From: Rozella allomycis CSF55
Taxonomy: Eukaryota > Rozellomycota
Assembly (NCBI GenBank): GCA_000442015.1
Contig: KE561047.1
Coordinates: 141,341 to 205,340, forward strand
Length of the DNA stretch: 64,000 bases
Direction of reading: 5' to 3'
Shown: positions 40,301-50,200 of the stretch, piece after piece
Layout of the letters: every line of letters starts with the position of its first letter
Position numbering within the stretch: the first letter of the stretch is position 1
Notes under the pieces: generated by a model
What the model was told of the DNA's origin: nothing
What the model saw: the letters and a program-made list of their open reading frames with translations, nothing else
Databases searched by the model: none
Position numbers and translations under genes: made by a program

Positions 40301-41126
40301 TTATTTTTCGGCGGTAGCCTTTGAACCACGGATAAGACCGGTACGGCGAGCAGCAATAAGACCAACTTTTTGACCGGCTGGAGCATATCTTGAAACGGTT
40401 GAAGCATGACCAATGTGTTGATGGTTACCACCACCATGAGGATGGTCAACTGGATTCATAGCAACACCACGAGTCTTTGGCCAGCAGTTTCTCTTAGCCT
40501 TGTATTTATGGTAAGCACGACCGGCTTTGAGCATTGGCTTGTCAATACGACCTCCACCAGCAATAACTCCGACCATAGCTCTGCATGCACTTTCTAAACT
40601 TGAATCAAAATTATATATTCTTTTTACACTTTCTTAGCACCAGATGGCAATTTAACACGAGTCTTTCCTTCATCAGGATTGTGTCCGATGATAGTTGCGT
40701 AATTACCGGAAGCACGAGCAAGAGCACCGCGATCTCCAGCTTTTTCTTCGACGTTGCAAATGACAGTACCTTCAGGCATGGAAGCAAGTGGCAAAACGTT
40801 TCCAACAGTTAAAGAAGCTTTAATAATAAGTTATTTGTAATTTTACCCTTCTTTCCGCAGTAAACAAATTGTCCAGTGTACATTCCTTCAGAAGCAATGA
40901 AAAGAGCTTCTCTTTGTTTATAGCGGTATGGATCACGGAAAATAACTCTTGCCAATGGAGCACCACGACCTGGATCATGGATAATTTCTTTAACAAGACC
41001 ACGGATGTATCCACGACGTTCGGCAAAATCAACTGCACGAAGTTTGGCTGCTCCCTTGCGATGCTTATTGTGGGATTTAAAAATACCTCCAGCACCTTTA
41101 CGTTGTGAACGAATAACGCGACCCAT
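40301..41126 (-). CDS. RPL8: Cytosolic ribosomal protein uL2 (RPL8)
   Basis: Two 29-nt introns; 255 residues. [56 protein letters not shown], and the peptidyl-transferase-proximal loop [19 protein letters not shown] with the conserved His are all present. Core component of the 60S peptidyl transferase centre. Codons are more G+C-rich than in neighbours, as expected for a highly expressed gene. Confidence 0.97.
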
Positions 41127-41263
41127 TTGAAAAAAAGGCTTAGACCGGGGTTCCGTATTTTGCAGTAAATTTCAGGAATAAACAGAAATTTCGTAATAGC
41201 AAGTATAACGATTTTATTTGGTTAACAATGAAATTAGTAGCATCTAATATAATATTTGTATAA

Positions 41264-42127
41264 TTAGCGAAGGTGTTCATCATCTTGTGGTACTCTTTTT
41301 AGCAATAGGTTCCACCACGAAAGCCTTCGAGGCTTGTTTTCTTTTTCAGTGCAGTTCATATATTTTTCCTTGTAAATCCAAGTGTTTCCAACTAAACCTC
41401 TACCTTGATCAGCCGCTTTTCGAAATAAGGCAGCGGCGCGATATTTGTCTCTTTTGACTCCTTGACCTTTTAAGTATAGTCCGGCAAGTTCATTTTGTGC
41501 GTCAGGATCACCTAGTTCCGCAGCTAGTTTAAAATAGTATGCTGCATTAACATATGACCTTTCAGTTCCCCAGCCTTTTTGAAATGACACTCCTAATTCG
41601 AATAAGATTAGTCCAATTTGATATGAATGTTCTTTTAAAGCCAGTTCATCAAAGGAGTCTCTATCTCTTTGGTCATAAACGGCCATGAGGATCGAAACAT
41701 GTGCAGCTTGATAAAGTAGCAACAAAGACTTGTGGCCATCGTCCTCCACTCCCCATCCATGACGATAGCACATCGCGTGAAAAAATAATCCCAAGGGATT
41801 GCCAAGATCTCCCGACAATTTAAATTTCTTGACAGATTCTTCCAACTGGTTTCTTTCATGTAAATCTATTCCTTCTGCTAAAAGATCATTTGATTTATTA
41901 ACAACGGCAGGATCAAGTGAAAATTTTCTTTCTAATCCTTTTATTTCTTGAGAAAGCTGGGAGGAAAGTGGTATTAAGGCTAAACGGGTTCCATTTAGGA
42001 TTACTCCATCTTTTATATCAATGGGATTCTGGGTAGCGTTGGTAAGTTTTGTTGAAACACGTTGCGGTGTTTTTCCTAGTCTTTTTGAGTAGACCCGAAA
42101 GACCTTTGAGATGTTTGTTTGAGTCAT
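41264..42127 (-). CDS. Sel1-repeat protein
   Basis: Intronless, 287 codons from MTQTNISKVFRVYSK; the frame extends upstream but only to a GTG. Several Sel1 (TPR-like) repeats are visible from residue ~95: FFHAMCYRHGWGVEDDGHKS, VSFQKGWGTERSYVNAAYYFKLAAELGDPDA, LAGLYLKGQGVKRDKYRAAALFRKAADQG. These scaffold repeats occur in fungal chitin synthase activators and ERAD adaptors. The repeat order resembles uncharacterised fungal cytosolic proteins. Partner unknown. Confidence 0.8.
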   Translation of the reverse strand: MTQTNISKVFRVYSKRLGKTPQRVSTKLTNATQNPIDIKDGVILNGTRLALIPLSSQLSQEIKGLERKFSLDPAVVNKSNDLLAEGIDLHERNQLEESVKKFKLSGDLGNPLGLFFHAMCYRHGWGVEDDGHKSLLLLYQAAHVSILMAVYDQRDRDSFDELALKEHSYQIGLILFELGVSFQKGWGTERSYVNAAYYFKLAAELGDPDAQNELAGLYLKGQGVKRDKYRAAALFRKAADQGRGLVGNTWIYKEKYMNCTEKENKPRRLSWWNLLLKRVPQDDEHLR

Positions 42128-42299
42128 GAAATTTCTAGAATTCCATTGGCTGATTTTGCCACATCTATTTTTGGACACGTGAATAGTGAATTGGGAGATG
42201 ACATTATCAATCAGAATTTATGGCAATTGCCAATTTAATTACTTTAAAGCTGCCTAGAAATCTCTGATTATTTTCACATTTGGAATTTCGTAAACATTA

Positions 42300-45238
42300 A
42301 TGGCCAATGAAGAAATGGAAATAACTCCATTAATGGAAAGCCATTCAAGATTTTCATCATATAGCTTATTGGGTTTACCAATAGATAATGCAAGGAATAG
42401 GAAAGGGTCTACTGAAAGCCCAGGAAATGATCATTTTACCTCTTCATTAAGACCATCAATGATGCAGCATTTCGCAATATATTTAAAATCATCAAGAACT
42501 GGAAGGGTATGGGAAATAGTAGATTTTGTATTGACCCTCCTTTTATGCGTTACATATATAATTAACAGTGAATATCGACATACAGGGCTACCGTTTAATT
42601 ATCTTCTACTTGATTTTATGATAATTACTTTACTCTGGATTGTATGGATTCCAAAGATGTATTTGAATAACAAGAGAGAGAGATTTTATGTGTCTTGGCC
42701 GACGATTGTAAGTTTGATGACATTGCTGTCGCCAACATTGGCCTTTGTGGATGTTAGTTTGAGAGATTCGTTCATGTCTGGAGGATATTATGTTTATACA
42801 TATCCTTTTCGATTTATCCGACTGTATCAGAGTACGATGGTTTTGCTGCGGCCATCCCAGAATCCGATTTTTGTTATATCAGATGTAGGAAGAAAATCTT
42901 TAAAGTTATATCTTAATATATTGTTTATTCTATTGATAGCTAGTGGATTATTGCATATTGTTGAAACAAAGCAGCAGCATATTGACAAATCATTTTTTGA
43001 TGTATTTTGGTATGTGACAGGTATAAATTAGGATTTGATTTGATAGTATCATCTACGACTGGTTTAGCAACATCGATCATTCCTGATAATCCCTTTTCCA
43101 GGGTTGTGATACTTTATATTATAGTGATGGGTAATTAGACTAATGATGGAGGATAGGATTGATATTGATACCAGTGACAGTTTCTGATTTATTAGATTTG
43201 ATTAGAAAAAAGTCAAAATATGTTCATAGATACAAGGGTCAAAAGGGAGATGAGCATGTGATTGTGATTGGGGAATTCGATACAAATAGCATTACGGGAT
43301 TATTGAAAGAATTTTTCTGTCTAGATCATGGTGATTCAACGATAAATACAAAGTTGGTTTTGATTAATCAAGATGAGCCCAGTGAGGCTGTAGCTCAATT
43401 GATACAGGATCCACTTTATATGAACAGAGTGCAATATATTAAGGGAAGTCCATTATCATTTAGAGTATTGAAAAAAGCTCAAGCGGATAAAGCAAAGGCG
43501 TGTTTTGTGTTTACTGGTAAATTTCAAGTGAACAAGGATGGGTTTGAAGATTCGTCTTCAGTGATGAGAACTTTGGTAATTAAATAATTTAAATATTTAG
43601 AAAAGGCTGTCAAAAAATATAATCCAAATATTTCAGTGATAGCTCAAGTTATTTCACCAACGAACAAGGACCATGTTTCATTATTGGCACAACAAGTGAT
43701 TTGTATAAATGAAATAAGATTTGGATTGTTATCTAATAATGTTTTATCTCCTGGAGTTTCTTCATTAATACAATTATTGACGACTTCTATTACAGATCAA
43801 GCGATGCAAATTGCAACAACTAAAATAGAATCAAAGCCAGGGATGAATTGGATGAAAGAATTTTTAAAAGGAGCAACTCAAGAATTTTATCAAACTTATT
43901 TATCAATTTATTTTATTGGAAAATCTTTTCTCCAAGCAGCTGAGATAATAAAAGTTAAATTTAACGTTGTTTTGATTGGAGTTAGCATTAAAAGTGATTC
44001 TAATATTCGTTCTTTATATTTAAATCCTCAAAATTATTTAATTCAAGGAAACGAAATAGCGATAATTATTGGATGCAATCAACACGTTGTTTCAAAGCTA
44101 AGTGAATATTCACCAGATGGAACTGAAAATTCAATTCTAGAAGAAAGCTTTGATCACATTTTAAGTGAATCGAATCCAATAAAAATATTTGACACTCCAA
44201 ATCTAAACAAGAATTATCATAAAAGATCCAAATCTGCTTTTGTTAGAAGAAATTCAACAATCAAAAATGATCTTTATTATAAATTTACTCCAGATTCAAA
44301 TATTTTTAAAAAGTTATTTTCTGATTCTGAATCTTTGATTGAAATCCCAGCTTCAATAAACAATCACGTCTTGCTTTGTGACTCTAGCGATGAATTCCCT
44401 TCAAACTTGGATTGCTTCATTGGTCCTTTAAGAGGCCATCATTTAGAATTTATGACTCCAATCGTCATTCTTTCTAAAACTGAACCTTCAAATAAAGTTA
44501 AAAAATATCTCTCAAATTTTAAAAATGTAATAAATTACTTGATTAGTTCTCTTAGATTTGGTTTGTTAACGGAAGTCCTTTGGAAAAAGCTGATTTAATC
44601 AGAGCAGGTATTGAAAGAGCTTCCCGCGTGGTAATACTAGCCAATCCAAAAGATTACGAAAAGTAACTTATTATTCAATGCTACATTATAGCTTGCATCT
44701 AAGAGTTGCTGATTCAAGGACTCTGTTTGCTATTTTAAATGCTGAAGCAATGTCCCCTCAAACAACATTCATCATGGCTGAAATTCTCCATGCTGAAAAT
44801 GCTAAATTTCTCGGCGATAACGATGATTTATCAATCAAAGAACATTTCATTGGTCAAGACATGCTTTCATCCGCTTTCATGGGAGGTCATGTTTCAAGCC
44901 CTTGGATAATGGATACACTTTTATGTCAAGCTTACTACAATCCATATCTTATCTCTATCCTACATAATTTGCTGTTCAGTGGAACCAAAGAATATAACCC
45001 ATCAGATCCAATCCTTCCCTCTCATCTCTATCAAGTCTTAATCCCAAAAGAATTATACATGTTGAATTATACAACTATTTTCAGATATTTTCTAAAGAGA
45101 AAATCAGCTATTTGCATTGGAGTCTATAAATTAATACACGATAAGATGATTGTTATTCCAAACCCAAAGCAAAATACCCTTTTAAATCAAGGAGACTCCG
45201 TTTTTGTCATTTCTCACAGAAAACCATCCTTTGAATGA
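42300..45238 (+). CDS. BK/Slo-like ion channel with a non-canonical selectivity filter
   Basis: Five introns of 26-30 nt; 932 residues. Transmembrane part (residues ~70-260), then two RCK gating domains: GDEHVIVIGEFDTNSI, VQYIKGSPLSF, MRTLAVKKYNPNISVIAQV, LSIYFIGKSFLQAAEI, FVNGSPLEKADLIRAGI. Colinear with Slo1. Three departures: the pore reads VSSTTGLATSIIPDNPF where Slo1 has a TVGYGD filter; S4 (PFRFIRLYQSTMVLLR) has few positive charges; the Asp-rich calcium bowl is replaced by FLGDNDDLS. Membership is clear; potassium selectivity, voltage and calcium sensing are all doubtful. Confidence 0.88.
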
Positions 45239-45286
45239 TACAGTGAAATAAAGAATAAATTTGTGATAATCTTAATGTCCATTTTA

Positions 45287-46615
45287 TTAGTTTGCGGCGA
45301 TGATTTTTTGCATTTCTTCTTCAACAAATCCTTGAGGTTTAATTTGCGTCGCCATATTCTTCCAAGATTCAAGGTTCTCAAAAAACTCAGATAAATCCTC
45401 TTTTATATTCTGCCATCTCAATTCTAAATGCTGAAGTGAATGAATAACGACAGTTTCTTCAATCTGATTAATAGAAACATCAACAATGTTCTCCTTGGCA
45501 GCTAATATCAAAAAATACATTATAAATACCCTTCAATAAAAAATCTTCTACACATTCCACACTCAAAAGGGTTTTCAAATCATTCAATTTAAAGGTGTCT
45601 CCATTTCCGAGCTTCAATAGCTTAAACCACTTTGCCTTGTTCGCGGCTTCTTGGTTCCCATCCTTTAACAGCTTCTCCACATCACCTTCAAGCACACAGG
45701 TCAGCTCTTGATTGTCTTTAATCAATTCTTTCTTTTCAAAGAGAAAAGATGGATCAATCCATTTGTTACTCTTCTTAAACGACTCTACCGCCTCCTCAAG
45801 ATATTTGGATTCTTGGGTGGATTGAAACAAAGTAACGGAAACCAAATAAGCAGAAGAATAATATCCTGATGTCTTGAACATGTTCAATAAAGTTATCAAA
45901 ACGTCTATATTATTTTCAGCTTCTAAATTCCAGTCTCTAATGTCTTCTAAAACATCTTCCAAGTGTTCAACGAATTGAAATACATTGCCACAAGCCTCAA
46001 CGCTTTTAATATAATCAATGAAAACCTTCAACTTAGATCCTTCAGGTACTACATAGAGTAATGCTTGCATTCTTTCATAACAAACTTAGAAATGATTTAC
46101 GTCTTATTTAATCTTTCACAATTGTCTTTAAAGAAAGTTTTGCATTTCTCATAAATCTTTAAACTAGTTTCGCCAAACTTTTCTTCATCAATACTTGAAC
46201 AAACAAGAATAAAAAGTTCAAAAGTGCTCTCAAAATCTTTATCATCCATATCAGAGAAATATTGTATTTGCTCCAATAACAAGTCCAATAAAACTTGGTT
46301 ATTTGATTTTATGCAGTTTTCTTTAGCTACACTTATGAAAGAATGTGGCTCAGGATGAACCTTGGCTATCTTCATACAAAGCTCTTGCACCTATAAAACT
46401 TTTAACGCTTTTTTACTAATTCTTTTTGTTCTTTTAAAGCAAACATTTGAAAAATAGTTTGGTGTGGCTGAGCGAAGCAGGCAAGAGCAGAAAGTACAAA
46501 TTTTGCATTCTTTGGCTCATTTAAAGTTTAAACAAGCCAAGATTCAAGACTTTTAAAGACGACTCTTGTTGATATCGTTTTGAAGTATTTCTATGTCTGC
46601 GATTGGATACTTCAT
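45287..46615 (-). CDS. Translation initiation factor eIF3 subunit m (PCI domain)
   Basis: Helical repeat plus PCI protein. Blocks: PKNAKFVLSALACFAQPHQ, VQELCMKIAKVHPEP, MQALLYVVPEGSKLKVFIDY, then the winged-helix end ending with VVIHSLQHLELRWQNIKEDL and a helix with WKNMA, which mirrors the eIF3m C terminus (V.SHS.HR.F....W..L...L..W..NL). Another PCI-family member (CSN7-like) is the main alternative. First exon (ATG 46615, MKYPIADIEI) and its intron are uncertain; candidates are 18 or 35 nt. Confidence 0.65.
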
Positions 46616-47191: not shown

Positions 47192-47281
47192 AAGTAATAA
47201 TAAAAATAAAAATAACAAAATTTGCTTATTGTAATTTTGGAATATCAACGATGATTATTTAGATGGTAATCAAAACGTAAT

Positions 47282-50200
47282 ATGTCCGACGGGCTGGTGC
47301 GGCTAAGCCCCAGAAAGATGATGTTCAATTTTTCATTGACTGTTCTATTGCTTTTAGGTGTAGTATATGGTGACCCATGCACTAACGCGCAAAAGTATTC
47401 CTGGTTTCCCAATGACCGTGCAGTTTTGGGTCTTGAGACTGGAGAATATTACGTCGGACAAACAATCACCTTCACATCAAACCATTTACGCTTCAAAACA
47501 AAAGGAGAATTATTATCGGAATCATTCCAAATCACAAAGAACACCCACAAAGTTACAATTAGTAATCAGATACATAAAGAACTATGTGATTTAACTGTAA
47601 ATGCAAGGTATATTGAACTCCGATTACAAAGCGACATTGGGCATTCTTTTGACTCTGAAGTTAACACCGTTAAGGCCTGTCCAAAAGATGAAATAACTTT
47701 GAGACCATCAGATAGTTTTCTGCGATATTGTGAACGCATCAAAGGAAATAGTCTTGAATTGACTATTCTTCACAACAATAATGTGAAGATGGTCAATATT
47801 TGTGACAAGAATGAAAAATACTCTTTCGAATTTGATTATTTTAAGAGCAGGTCGAGCCAATATATTGTATTCAAACCCACGGAGGAATATTTCGAAGAAG
47901 TGGCCATCAGTGCATATTCGCAAGACGCCGAATTTACTACCTTTGATGTATTCGACTCTCAAAGCTCCTCAAATGTTATGCCTGTTACAAAATTAATCCC
48001 AGGCCGTCCATTCGAGATTCGCTATAAACTGAATTGTCTGTCCCAAGTTAAAGCCAGCTTATCTTACAAAACAACTCTTGGCCCTTCCAATCTATCAGTT
48101 AGTCACAAATCAACATCCGAAGGTGTCACAATATTTGGCCGACTTCCCCAAGACGCAGTTTCTCTTGAAGCCGAATTTTTGGAATTTCCGAGCTTCCGGA
48201 AACAAATTCCAATTGCTCGGTTTAATTTACAAGTTAGAAACCAAGATAATTTATTTGAAGGACAAGATGTGATCATTGAAAATGTACCTTTTGAAATGAT
48301 GGAAGAGGTTGGTGCAAAGATGCGAGTGACAATTGAAAACAGGGAAGTGTATTGTCAGAGACAAGGAACTGGCTGTTTAATAAAGCAAGTAGCTGGTGGG
48401 TTGTACCATGTTGAGATTGGGGAAGGCTTTCCAAAGATTGATTTTAGTGTGAAATCAGGAAACGAAATTATTGTGGAAAAAATACAGCTTGTGACAAGTA
48501 ATGGAGGAAAAAGCGATACGCGTGTTTATATTCCGGGAGACATGATTTATGTTTCGTGGAAGTTAAAGTATGAAACTGCGGGATCAAAGAGGCTGGAATT
48601 GAATTATGAGAATAACAAGGGGAAAGATGTCACTGTGATAATGAATGACACCAACAATGTCAAGGTGCCGACTGATGCAATTGGATACTTTTATTTCTCG
48701 CTGGTCGGGTTTAATAGGGTAAGGTCAGCAAAGTTTGAAACCACTATTCCTAGTAAGATATTAAACATAAATGAATTCAGCGTTAAAATTTAATAGTGAA
48801 AGAGTGTTTGCTGGCAATCACATAGTGGTGCAGATAATAGGATTAGAAGATGCAGATATCAAGTTGAGAAATTTCGACATAGAATCAAAGAATCGTTCTG
48901 GCCATGGCTCTAAAAAGATGGCGATAAAAACCAAAAGTTTCTATTTTACAATGGCGCCAGACAGTTGGGAAATATTACTGAAACGCGATCAAACTGTTTT
49001 TGATAAGAAAACGGTTGTTGTAGAGAATTTAAAGTATAATAGATTTGATATTGAAGTATTAAATGTTGGAAAGGATGCTAGCAAAGTTGGGATATTTTCG
49101 AATGACAAGATCCAGGTGAAAATGGAATTGAATGTTGCCCTGCCGATTTCTTTTGAGATTACGGCAAGGATTGGAAAGCATGTTGAAAAGTTGACAGTTA
49201 AAAATGGGTTTGTGATGGATGTTCCCAAAGTTGAAGAAAAGATAAAGATGAGTTTTGAATCACCTGGGTTAGAAGTGCAGGAATTTGTAGTGTATCCGTT
49301 CAGTAAATTTAAATGATTTGTTTAAAAAGGACTTGAGTATTCTGGACCTATTTTTGAATATGGAACTGTGTATTTCCGTTTTCCATATGAAGAAGAGATC
49401 AATCAGTTTGTCCATGAGCGAAGAATGAGAATTAATGGGTATGAAGCAAGAGCATTTGATATGACAACTATTGGCAAGCATGTATTTGGAGTTGACTTTG
49501 GGTTCAATGGGGTGGCGCCTGTGGCTGTTAATGTTGAACCGATAAAGTTTGTGGATGAGAGATTTAAAGTTGTTGTGAATAATGTTGATAGGAACGCCAA
49601 GGATGTTTTCATATTTTCTGGAGATGTTATTAAATTTGATTATAGATTGCCTGTTGGAAATTTGGGTACGTTTTCAATTTATGGAACGAATGAAATTGTT
49701 TGTGAGAATTTAACGATTGGAACTCCTTGTAGATTGCCGATGGTTTATAATTTTGAGAAATTTTTAATTCGACATGATGTTTATAAGAATGCGATGATTG
49801 AGTTTTATGTGTATCCATTAGGTAAGAATTAGTTGAAGATTTAAGTAGAAATTGGAATAAATTCAAGAAACTTGATTGAAGGTGATCGGTTGGATGTTCA
49901 AATCATAACAAATTATGAGAGATCTTTAAAGGGAAAGATTTTGGATGCGTTAAAGAAGAGGGGGTTTGGATTGTATGTTGGGCCAAGAAAAATGATGCAA
50001 CATGAATTTATATTTTATTTGGAAGATGTTAGAAAAAAGCATGAATCTATTCAAGTTACAGGAATTGAACATGAGCCCATTCCATTTAATGTTGGAGATT
50101 TACTGATTACTGAATTGAAATTGAGTTTGGATTATTACAGGAAAATTAAAGTGAATGAATTATTTTCTGAAGAAACAATTTTTATTGACTACAAAGTGAA

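Follow-up and report, generated by a model that had tools for sequence, protein, structure and literature searches.

In the window analysed here, a 64,000-nucleotide stretch of Rozella allomycis CSF55 (contig KE561047.1, positions 141,341 to 205,340), a six-exon gene at 42300–45238 on the plus strand encodes what is by descent, on the evidence of its sequence, a Slo-family subunit: its chain has six membrane segments and a pore loop of the re-entrant kind, followed by two RCK domains in tandem. Potassium channels are usually defined by the TVGYG filter, and in this protein and its fungal relatives a different loop stands in its place; to judge by its motifs the protein is a Slo channel by descent, yet no potassium channel by the motif that defines one. 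The reading we favour, with somewhat better than even confidence, is that the family consists of RCK-gated, poorly K+-selective cation channels that would be opened by a ligand and would date to early fungi. An earlier note on this DNA, made from its letters, had proposed a Slo/BK-like channel with an altered filter, non-selective or differently selective and ligand-gated. Its observation is confirmed and, more strongly than the note could know, the lost potassium signature turns out to be common to a whole fungal clade; its interpretation is partly supported, such a channel appearing to fit the evidence below.

Gene structure and the pore exon

The six exons join into an open frame of 932 amino acids, and all five introns (26, 26, 30, 29 and 29 nt) have GT...AG borders. 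The features of the gene are as follows, with the basis of each in brackets.

42300..43020, plus strand: exon 1, N-terminus, S1–S5 and pore helix, ending with base 1 of the V241 codon (gene model, family alignment)
42780..42848, plus strand: S4 region (approximate), containing YPFRFIRLYQ (family alignment)
43021..43046, plus strand: intron 1, 26 nt, GTATAA...GATAG (its removal restores the frame and the family match)
43047..43130, plus strand: exon 2, 84 nt, end of the pore helix, filter and start of S6 (family profile match, E=2.7e-11)
43055..43072, plus strand: TTGLAT (residues 244–249), the register of the earlier note (single-sequence alignment)
43058..43075, plus strand: codons T245–S250 (TGLATS), aligned with TVGYGD in the gapless register (profile comparison with Slo2, KvAP and BK; family columns)
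43131..43156, plus strand: intron 2, 26 nt (gene model)
43157..43575, plus strand: exon 3, S6 (LILIPVTVSDLLDL) and first part of RCK1 (gene model; PF22614 own-genome match)
43576..43605, plus strand: intron 3, 30 nt (gene model)
43606..44526, plus strand: exon 4, remainder of RCK1, BK_channel_a segment, linker and start of RCK2 (PF03493, 70.1 bits; own-genome match)
44527..44555, plus strand: intron 4, 29 nt (gene model)
44556..44662, plus strand: exon 5, RCK2 (gene model, Pfam)
44663..44691, plus strand: intron 5, 29 nt (gene model)
44692..45238, plus strand: exon 6, remainder of RCK2, C-terminus and stop codon (gene model, Pfam)
44801..44827, plus strand: site of the BK calcium bowl, reading AKFLGDNDD (alignment)

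S1–S4, the pore domain S5-P-S6 and the gating ring all lie in one chain, with tandem RCK domains and a BK_channel_a segment of the Slo type. PF22614 scores 172.5 bits in two stretches of the protein (cut-off 24) and PF03493 scores 70.1 bits (cut-off 26.8), so the Slo ancestry that the earlier note had read from the letters is well founded, as is the intact frame, open across all 932 codons.

With intron 1 spliced out, the frame across the pore reads FFDVFWYVTVSSTTGLATSIIPDNPFSR. A profile of 26 family members that did not include Rozella was run on the 1818 stop-to-stop frames of the window that hold at least 20 residues, and the frame containing the pore exon (43001–43135) was the best of them at E=2.7e-11, followed by those of S5 (1.8e-5) and S6 (2.7e-5), with no other frame better than 0.49. 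The same profile gives the spliced protein 101.5 bits. On this match to its relatives the pore exon is real, and the 26-nt intron and altered filter of the earlier note stand. A canonical filter is not recovered by other splicing either: none of the 93 GT/GC...AG donor/acceptor pairs around the pore, the modelled pair included, yields GYG or GFG. The six-frame translation of 42000–45600 holds two such triplets, both out of the gene's frame, a GYG at 42505 (plus strand, another frame, near stops) and a GFG at 45165 (minus strand). A 37-nt intron starting at GTATGT (43010) was also considered and rejected, since by eye it leaves the family frame.

The top protein match is O9G_000436 (P0001) of the same strain, identical to the spliced protein at 767 of 768 aligned residues. 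It lacks the first 119 residues (starting at residue 120), 17 residues just after S4 and 28 residues of the pore exon, joining FFDVFWYVT directly to GLILIPV, so that the public protein, which skips the pore exon, is left without any filter and appears, by comparison with the spliced frame, to be mis-modelled. That skip is what might be said for an artefact, whether the splice sites are wrong or the gene is an ordinary BK copy in decay, and because loss of an 84-nt exon keeps the frame, exon skipping is possible in principle. We nevertheless hold an artefact to be very improbable, given the fit of the exon to a profile from which Rozella was left out, the open frame, the failure of all 93 splice pairs to give GYG or GFG, and a filter type shared with orthologues.

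A fungal family with an altered filter

Three protein searches, each scoring about 8000 candidates, gave 69 proteins (P0001–P0069), of which 47 (P0001–P0010 and P0021–P0057) form a fungal family and the other 22 are animal and oomycete Slo proteins together with P0069. The names returned for the family include Coemansia, Kickxella, Smittium, Dispira, Dimargaris, Tieghemiomyces, Spiromyces, Massospora, Entomophthora, Calcarisporiella, Umbelopsis, Rhizophagus, Funneliformis, Entrophospora, Spizellomyces, Gaertneriomyces, Batrachochytrium, Gorgonomyces, Globomyces, Lobulomyces, Clydaea, Entophlyctis and Amoeboaphelidium, genera which we take to belong to chytrids, an aphelid, Entomophthorales, Mucoromycota, Glomeromycotina, Dimargaritales and Kickxellomycotina. 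Orthologues without the standard filter in zoosporic fungi, for which the earlier note had suggested a search, are thus present in chytrids and the aphelid, and also in terrestrial early-branching fungi. No ascomycete or basidiomycete name (Dikarya) stands among the matches listed, in which some names are incomplete or missing.

The filter was surveyed in 47 rows, with the spliced protein from the window taking the place of P0001 beside the other family members, and called readable where at least 30 of 31 pore columns were filled; 35 rows qualified and 12 were partial. Neither G[YFLM]G in the pore window nor the potassium signature T-x-G-[YF]-G occurs in any of the 35 readable rows, Rozella included, and so no relative with a standard filter, which would mark this copy as the decaying one, was seen among them. 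Read in the gapless register (below), the filters are TGLSSD (nine rows), SGLSTQ (seven), SGLSTN (three), and TGLTSD, SGLSTD and NGMSTD (two each), with single rows of TGLATS (Rozella), TGMSTN, SGLNTQ, SGTTRQ, NGLDTD, NGMDVD, SSIRTD, SGNTSQ, SGFNSN and LAFRGP. The form [STN]G[LM]ST[DQN] or TGLSSD accounts for 24 of the 35, and the partial rows P0047, P0048 and P0052 read STSGLSTQ. The 22 rows outside the fungal family read TVGYGD (12), TVGFGD (9) and TVSFGD (1).

Counted over 25 representatives in the gapless register, and with positions in what we take to be KcsA numbering, T75 becomes S in 15, T in 6 and N in 4; V76 becomes G in 24; G77 becomes L or M in 21; Y78 is mostly S (15) and G79 mostly T or S (23); and D80 is D in 11, Q in 9, N in 4 and S in one, Rozella. 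Departures from the family type occur in P0042 (Umbelopsis, SSIRTD), P0045 (Amoeboaphelidium, SGNTSQ) and P0029 (SGTTRQ), whose letters may mark further changes of selectivity within the family.

Register of the filter

In the gapless register TGLATS (245–250) falls on TVGYGD, according to a profile of 20 family pores compared with Slo2.2 (5a6e), KvAP (1orq) and human BK, and a MAFFT alignment gives the same result; the fungal P253 then lies on the proline of KvAP GDVVP and column 250 on D80. A phmmer single-sequence alignment to BK instead sets STTGLA on STVGYG with a one-residue gap on each side, which is the register of the earlier note. Under this alternative G77 remains a glycine and another residue, mostly S, takes the place of the second one. 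From the alignments the gapless register seems the likelier of the two, and the placing of TTGLAT on TVGYGD by the earlier note may be off by one residue; its claim that the filter is altered holds, and no G-x-G is left in the Rozella pore under either register. Slo2.2 (5a6e) was the top profile match of the pore region alone (E 7.3e-6, among the best 60 of 129 PDB matches), and a composite query for the pore found a single PDB sequence, 5v4s, with a weak E of 0.34.

Constraint and history

The filter is among the best conserved parts of the fungal family protein. Averaged across the 25 representatives, column entropy comes to 1.10 bits for the filter, 1.12 for the pore helix and 1.17 for the part that follows the filter, with 1.43 in S6, 1.48–1.82 in RCK1, 1.78 in RCK2 and 1.95 overall. 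A tree was made with the filter columns removed from 39 rows, 31 belonging to the fungal family and 8 others; in it the fungal rows group at 100/100, and separate groups are formed by chytrids (11 rows, 100/99), Massospora with Entomophthora (100/100), Glomeromycotina (3 rows, 100/100), Dimargaritales (3 rows, 100/99) and Kickxellomycotina (6 rows, 100/100). Rozella, P0009 and P0069 have long branches that meet at the base of the tree, as a treekit warning points out, so the exact place of Rozella is unsure. The simplest reading of the grouping would be a single filter change before the sampled fungal lineages split, followed by descent.

Calcium bowl and voltage sensor

The calcium bowl is reduced in Rozella, as the earlier note had it (AKFLGDNDDLSIKE versus VQFLDQDDDDDPDT); at the site, three animal BKs read LDQDDDDDPD and Rozella AKFLGDNDD. 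A run of five aspartates is found in none of the 22 family rows with letters at the site (23 looked at), which makes calcium sensing through a bowl unlikely in the family, though the oomycete Slo P0012 also lacks an aspartate-rich bowl. The claim of reduced S4 charges fares less well. The aligned S4 stretch holds three basic residues in Rozella, three to five in the family (23 rows), four in each of three animal BKs and six in P0012; the pattern does differ, RFIR in Rozella and mostly RFxR in the family against LRFLRALR in BK, but the count is close to that of animal BK, and a loss of voltage sensing is not arguable from it. In a predicted model of P0023, residues 1–86, where S0 would be sought, fall under pLDDT 50.

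Proposed mechanism and points weighing against it

In the channel we favour, the two tandem RCK domains of each subunit would build a tetrameric gating ring. Before the sampled lineages split, TVGYGD would have been replaced by a hydroxyl-rich loop, [STN]-G-[LM]-S-T-[DQN], which lacks the canonical G-x-G. The pore helix persists, and position T75 still has a hydroxyl or amide and D80 a polar or acidic residue. The narrow part of the pore, formed by four subunits, would then be lined by serine and threonine in place of carbonyls held by two glycines, dehydrated K+ would no longer be specially favoured, and Na+ and K+ would both pass, with weak selectivity for K+ over Na+. Binding of a cytosolic ligand to the gating ring would open S6, and opening would depolarise the cell, the opposite of BK. 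The corrections to register and S4 leave our confidence as it was, because neither bears on the absence of G-x-G.

Several observations weigh against this mechanism. Loss of selectivity is argued from the lost glycines, and the register differs between phmmer and the profile alignment. The filter letters differ between lineages (P0042, P0045), so one mechanism may not hold for all, and P0042 has no glycine in its filter. Rozella has S at the D80 position, and its pore may therefore differ from those with D. One row of the 35, P0037 (Borealophlyctis), reads LAFRGP, unrelated letters between matching flanks, which probably reflects a wrong gene model or splice error in the public record. The predicted model of P0023 is under pLDDT 50 at filter residues 301–304 and says nothing on filter geometry.

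Relation to known channels and alternative functions

Slo1/BK (KCNMA1, PF03493) has TVGYG or TVGFG and an aspartate-rich bowl, both lacking in the fungal family, and differs from it in the S4 arginine pattern at a similar basic count. Slo2 (KCNT1, the Na+-activated K+ channel) shares its S6 proline with the fungal family, and is likewise not known to have a calcium bowl, but carries TVGYGD in the same alignment (5a6e). The CNG and HCN channels, K+-channel-type pores without strict selectivity after filter changes, offer a precedent, although they are gated by cyclic nucleotides and have other filter sequences. Trk/Ktr/HKT proteins have RCK-type regulation and a short single-glycine loop motif like the fungal filter, with no signal above shuffles (below). 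According to the available part of PMC9898762 they have four pore loops per protein, as against one per chain here by gene model and family alignment. The closest precedent we have seen is CASTOR, described in the accessible portion of PMC6697748 as an RCK channel without TVGYG that is Ca2+-selective, with the filter AD(S/A)GNHA. The fungal family, mostly [STN]GLST[DQN] or TGLSSD, differs from CASTOR/POLLUX/DMI1 in this filter and is weakly related to them in sequence.

A channel that loses its canonical filter may also cease to conduct, and this, with the variation of filter letters between lineages, could suggest a protein with a non-conducting pore acting as RCK sensor, scaffold or silencing subunit. 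We think this unlikely, as the pore loop belongs to the best conserved parts of the protein, which would be needless in a dead pore, and the genome search gave no other Slo subunit, with a standard filter, that it could modify. About as unlikely is an RCK channel that is permeable to or selective for Ca2+ and would be the fungal equivalent of CASTOR/POLLUX/DMI1 in plants: the CASTOR filter is not present, an acid at the D80 position is not conserved (nine Q, four N and the S of Rozella among 25 representatives), and the sequence relation to DMI1 is weak, at E 4.3e-4.

A pore that stays K+-selective by another route, for instance with one glycine per loop as in Trk/Ktr/HKT, is also improbable, if marginally less so. 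Fungal T-S-G-L-S-T resembles loops such as TTAGFTTD; E. coli TrkH contains TTTGATT, AIGGFSTHD and TTAGFTTD; the single glycine of each Trk pore loop corresponds to the first glycine of GYG, as stated in the part of PMC9898762 available; and the phmmer register puts the fungal glycine at that place. In the gapless register, however, the glycine stands at V76 and not at G77, P0042 has none there, and when TrkH is put among 200 of its own shuffles, the fungal pore profile ranks it 171st of the 177 sequences that receive a score. A relation of the filter to Trk/Ktr/HKT was accordingly rejected, since TrkH does not rise above its shuffles and the likeness remains an analogy.

Other channels and neighbouring genes in Rozella

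The assembly (9,970,177 bases) was searched exon by exon. A second Slo gene was not found in it, PF03493 matching in one place and PF22614 in three, all within this gene, and TrkH (PF02386) had no match. Ordinary filters occur elsewhere in the genome, STVGYGD (L003/L013, C85) and ATVGYGD (L005/L007, C80), along with TTIGYGN and TTTGFGN in two pore loops of one frame (L002/L004, contig C141 of G000), presumably like a fungal TOK channel; Rozella has therefore not lost K+-type channels in general.

Directly upstream of the channel gene and divergent from it lies a Sel1-repeat protein gene (PF08238; 41264–42217, minus strand). An open frame at 40809–41171 (minus strand) has a weak Ribosomal_L2_N match of 20.1 bits (cut-off 23) and looks to us like an exon of cytosolic ribosomal protein L8/uL2. 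On the plus strand follow a fragment of dynein light chain type 1 (PF01221; 47021–47191) and a 507-residue open frame at 47270–48793 without a Pfam match at E 0.001, whose start looks signal-like by eye.

Significance

To judge by the sequences, the channel is probably old, overlooked and different in its ion preference. Among the matches listed from titles and abstracts of open-licence literature we found no description of this fungal Slo family, and the available portions of PMC12818911 and PMC7935092 say nothing about it. All five further family proteins scanned exceed the cut-offs of PF22614 and PF03493; Pfam ion-channel pore profiles are unlisted for P0023 and P0043, below cut-off for P0002 and P0042 and barely above it for P0045. 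When fungi pathogenic to humans were surveyed for cation channels in 2012 (PMC3410928), K+ channel matches, to go by the part of the paper available, needed similarity over the selectivity filter of the bait, and pores of the present type would easily escape such a rule. Weak matches to pore profiles and this survey rule may be why the family was overlooked.

We advance more tentatively, at a little under even confidence, the idea that in early fungi Slo gave rise to a class with a new selectivity, homotetrameric and RCK-gated, whose hydroxyl-lined filter, [STN]GLST[DQN], would be unlike those of K+, Na+, Ca2+, CNG and CASTOR channels. This class would already have been there before Rozella, aphelids, chytrids and terrestrial early-branching fungi split, would have been kept since, and would perhaps depolarise the cell when a ligand opens it, the reverse of what animal BK does. 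With the whole Slo machine kept and its filter swapped and constrained, the family is a natural experiment on conduction by the Slo scaffold, and one that bears on how gating-ring channels change selectivity. If the reading is true, early-branching fungi, including arbuscular mycorrhizal fungi and amphibian chytrids, would possess an uncharacterised ligand-gated channel.
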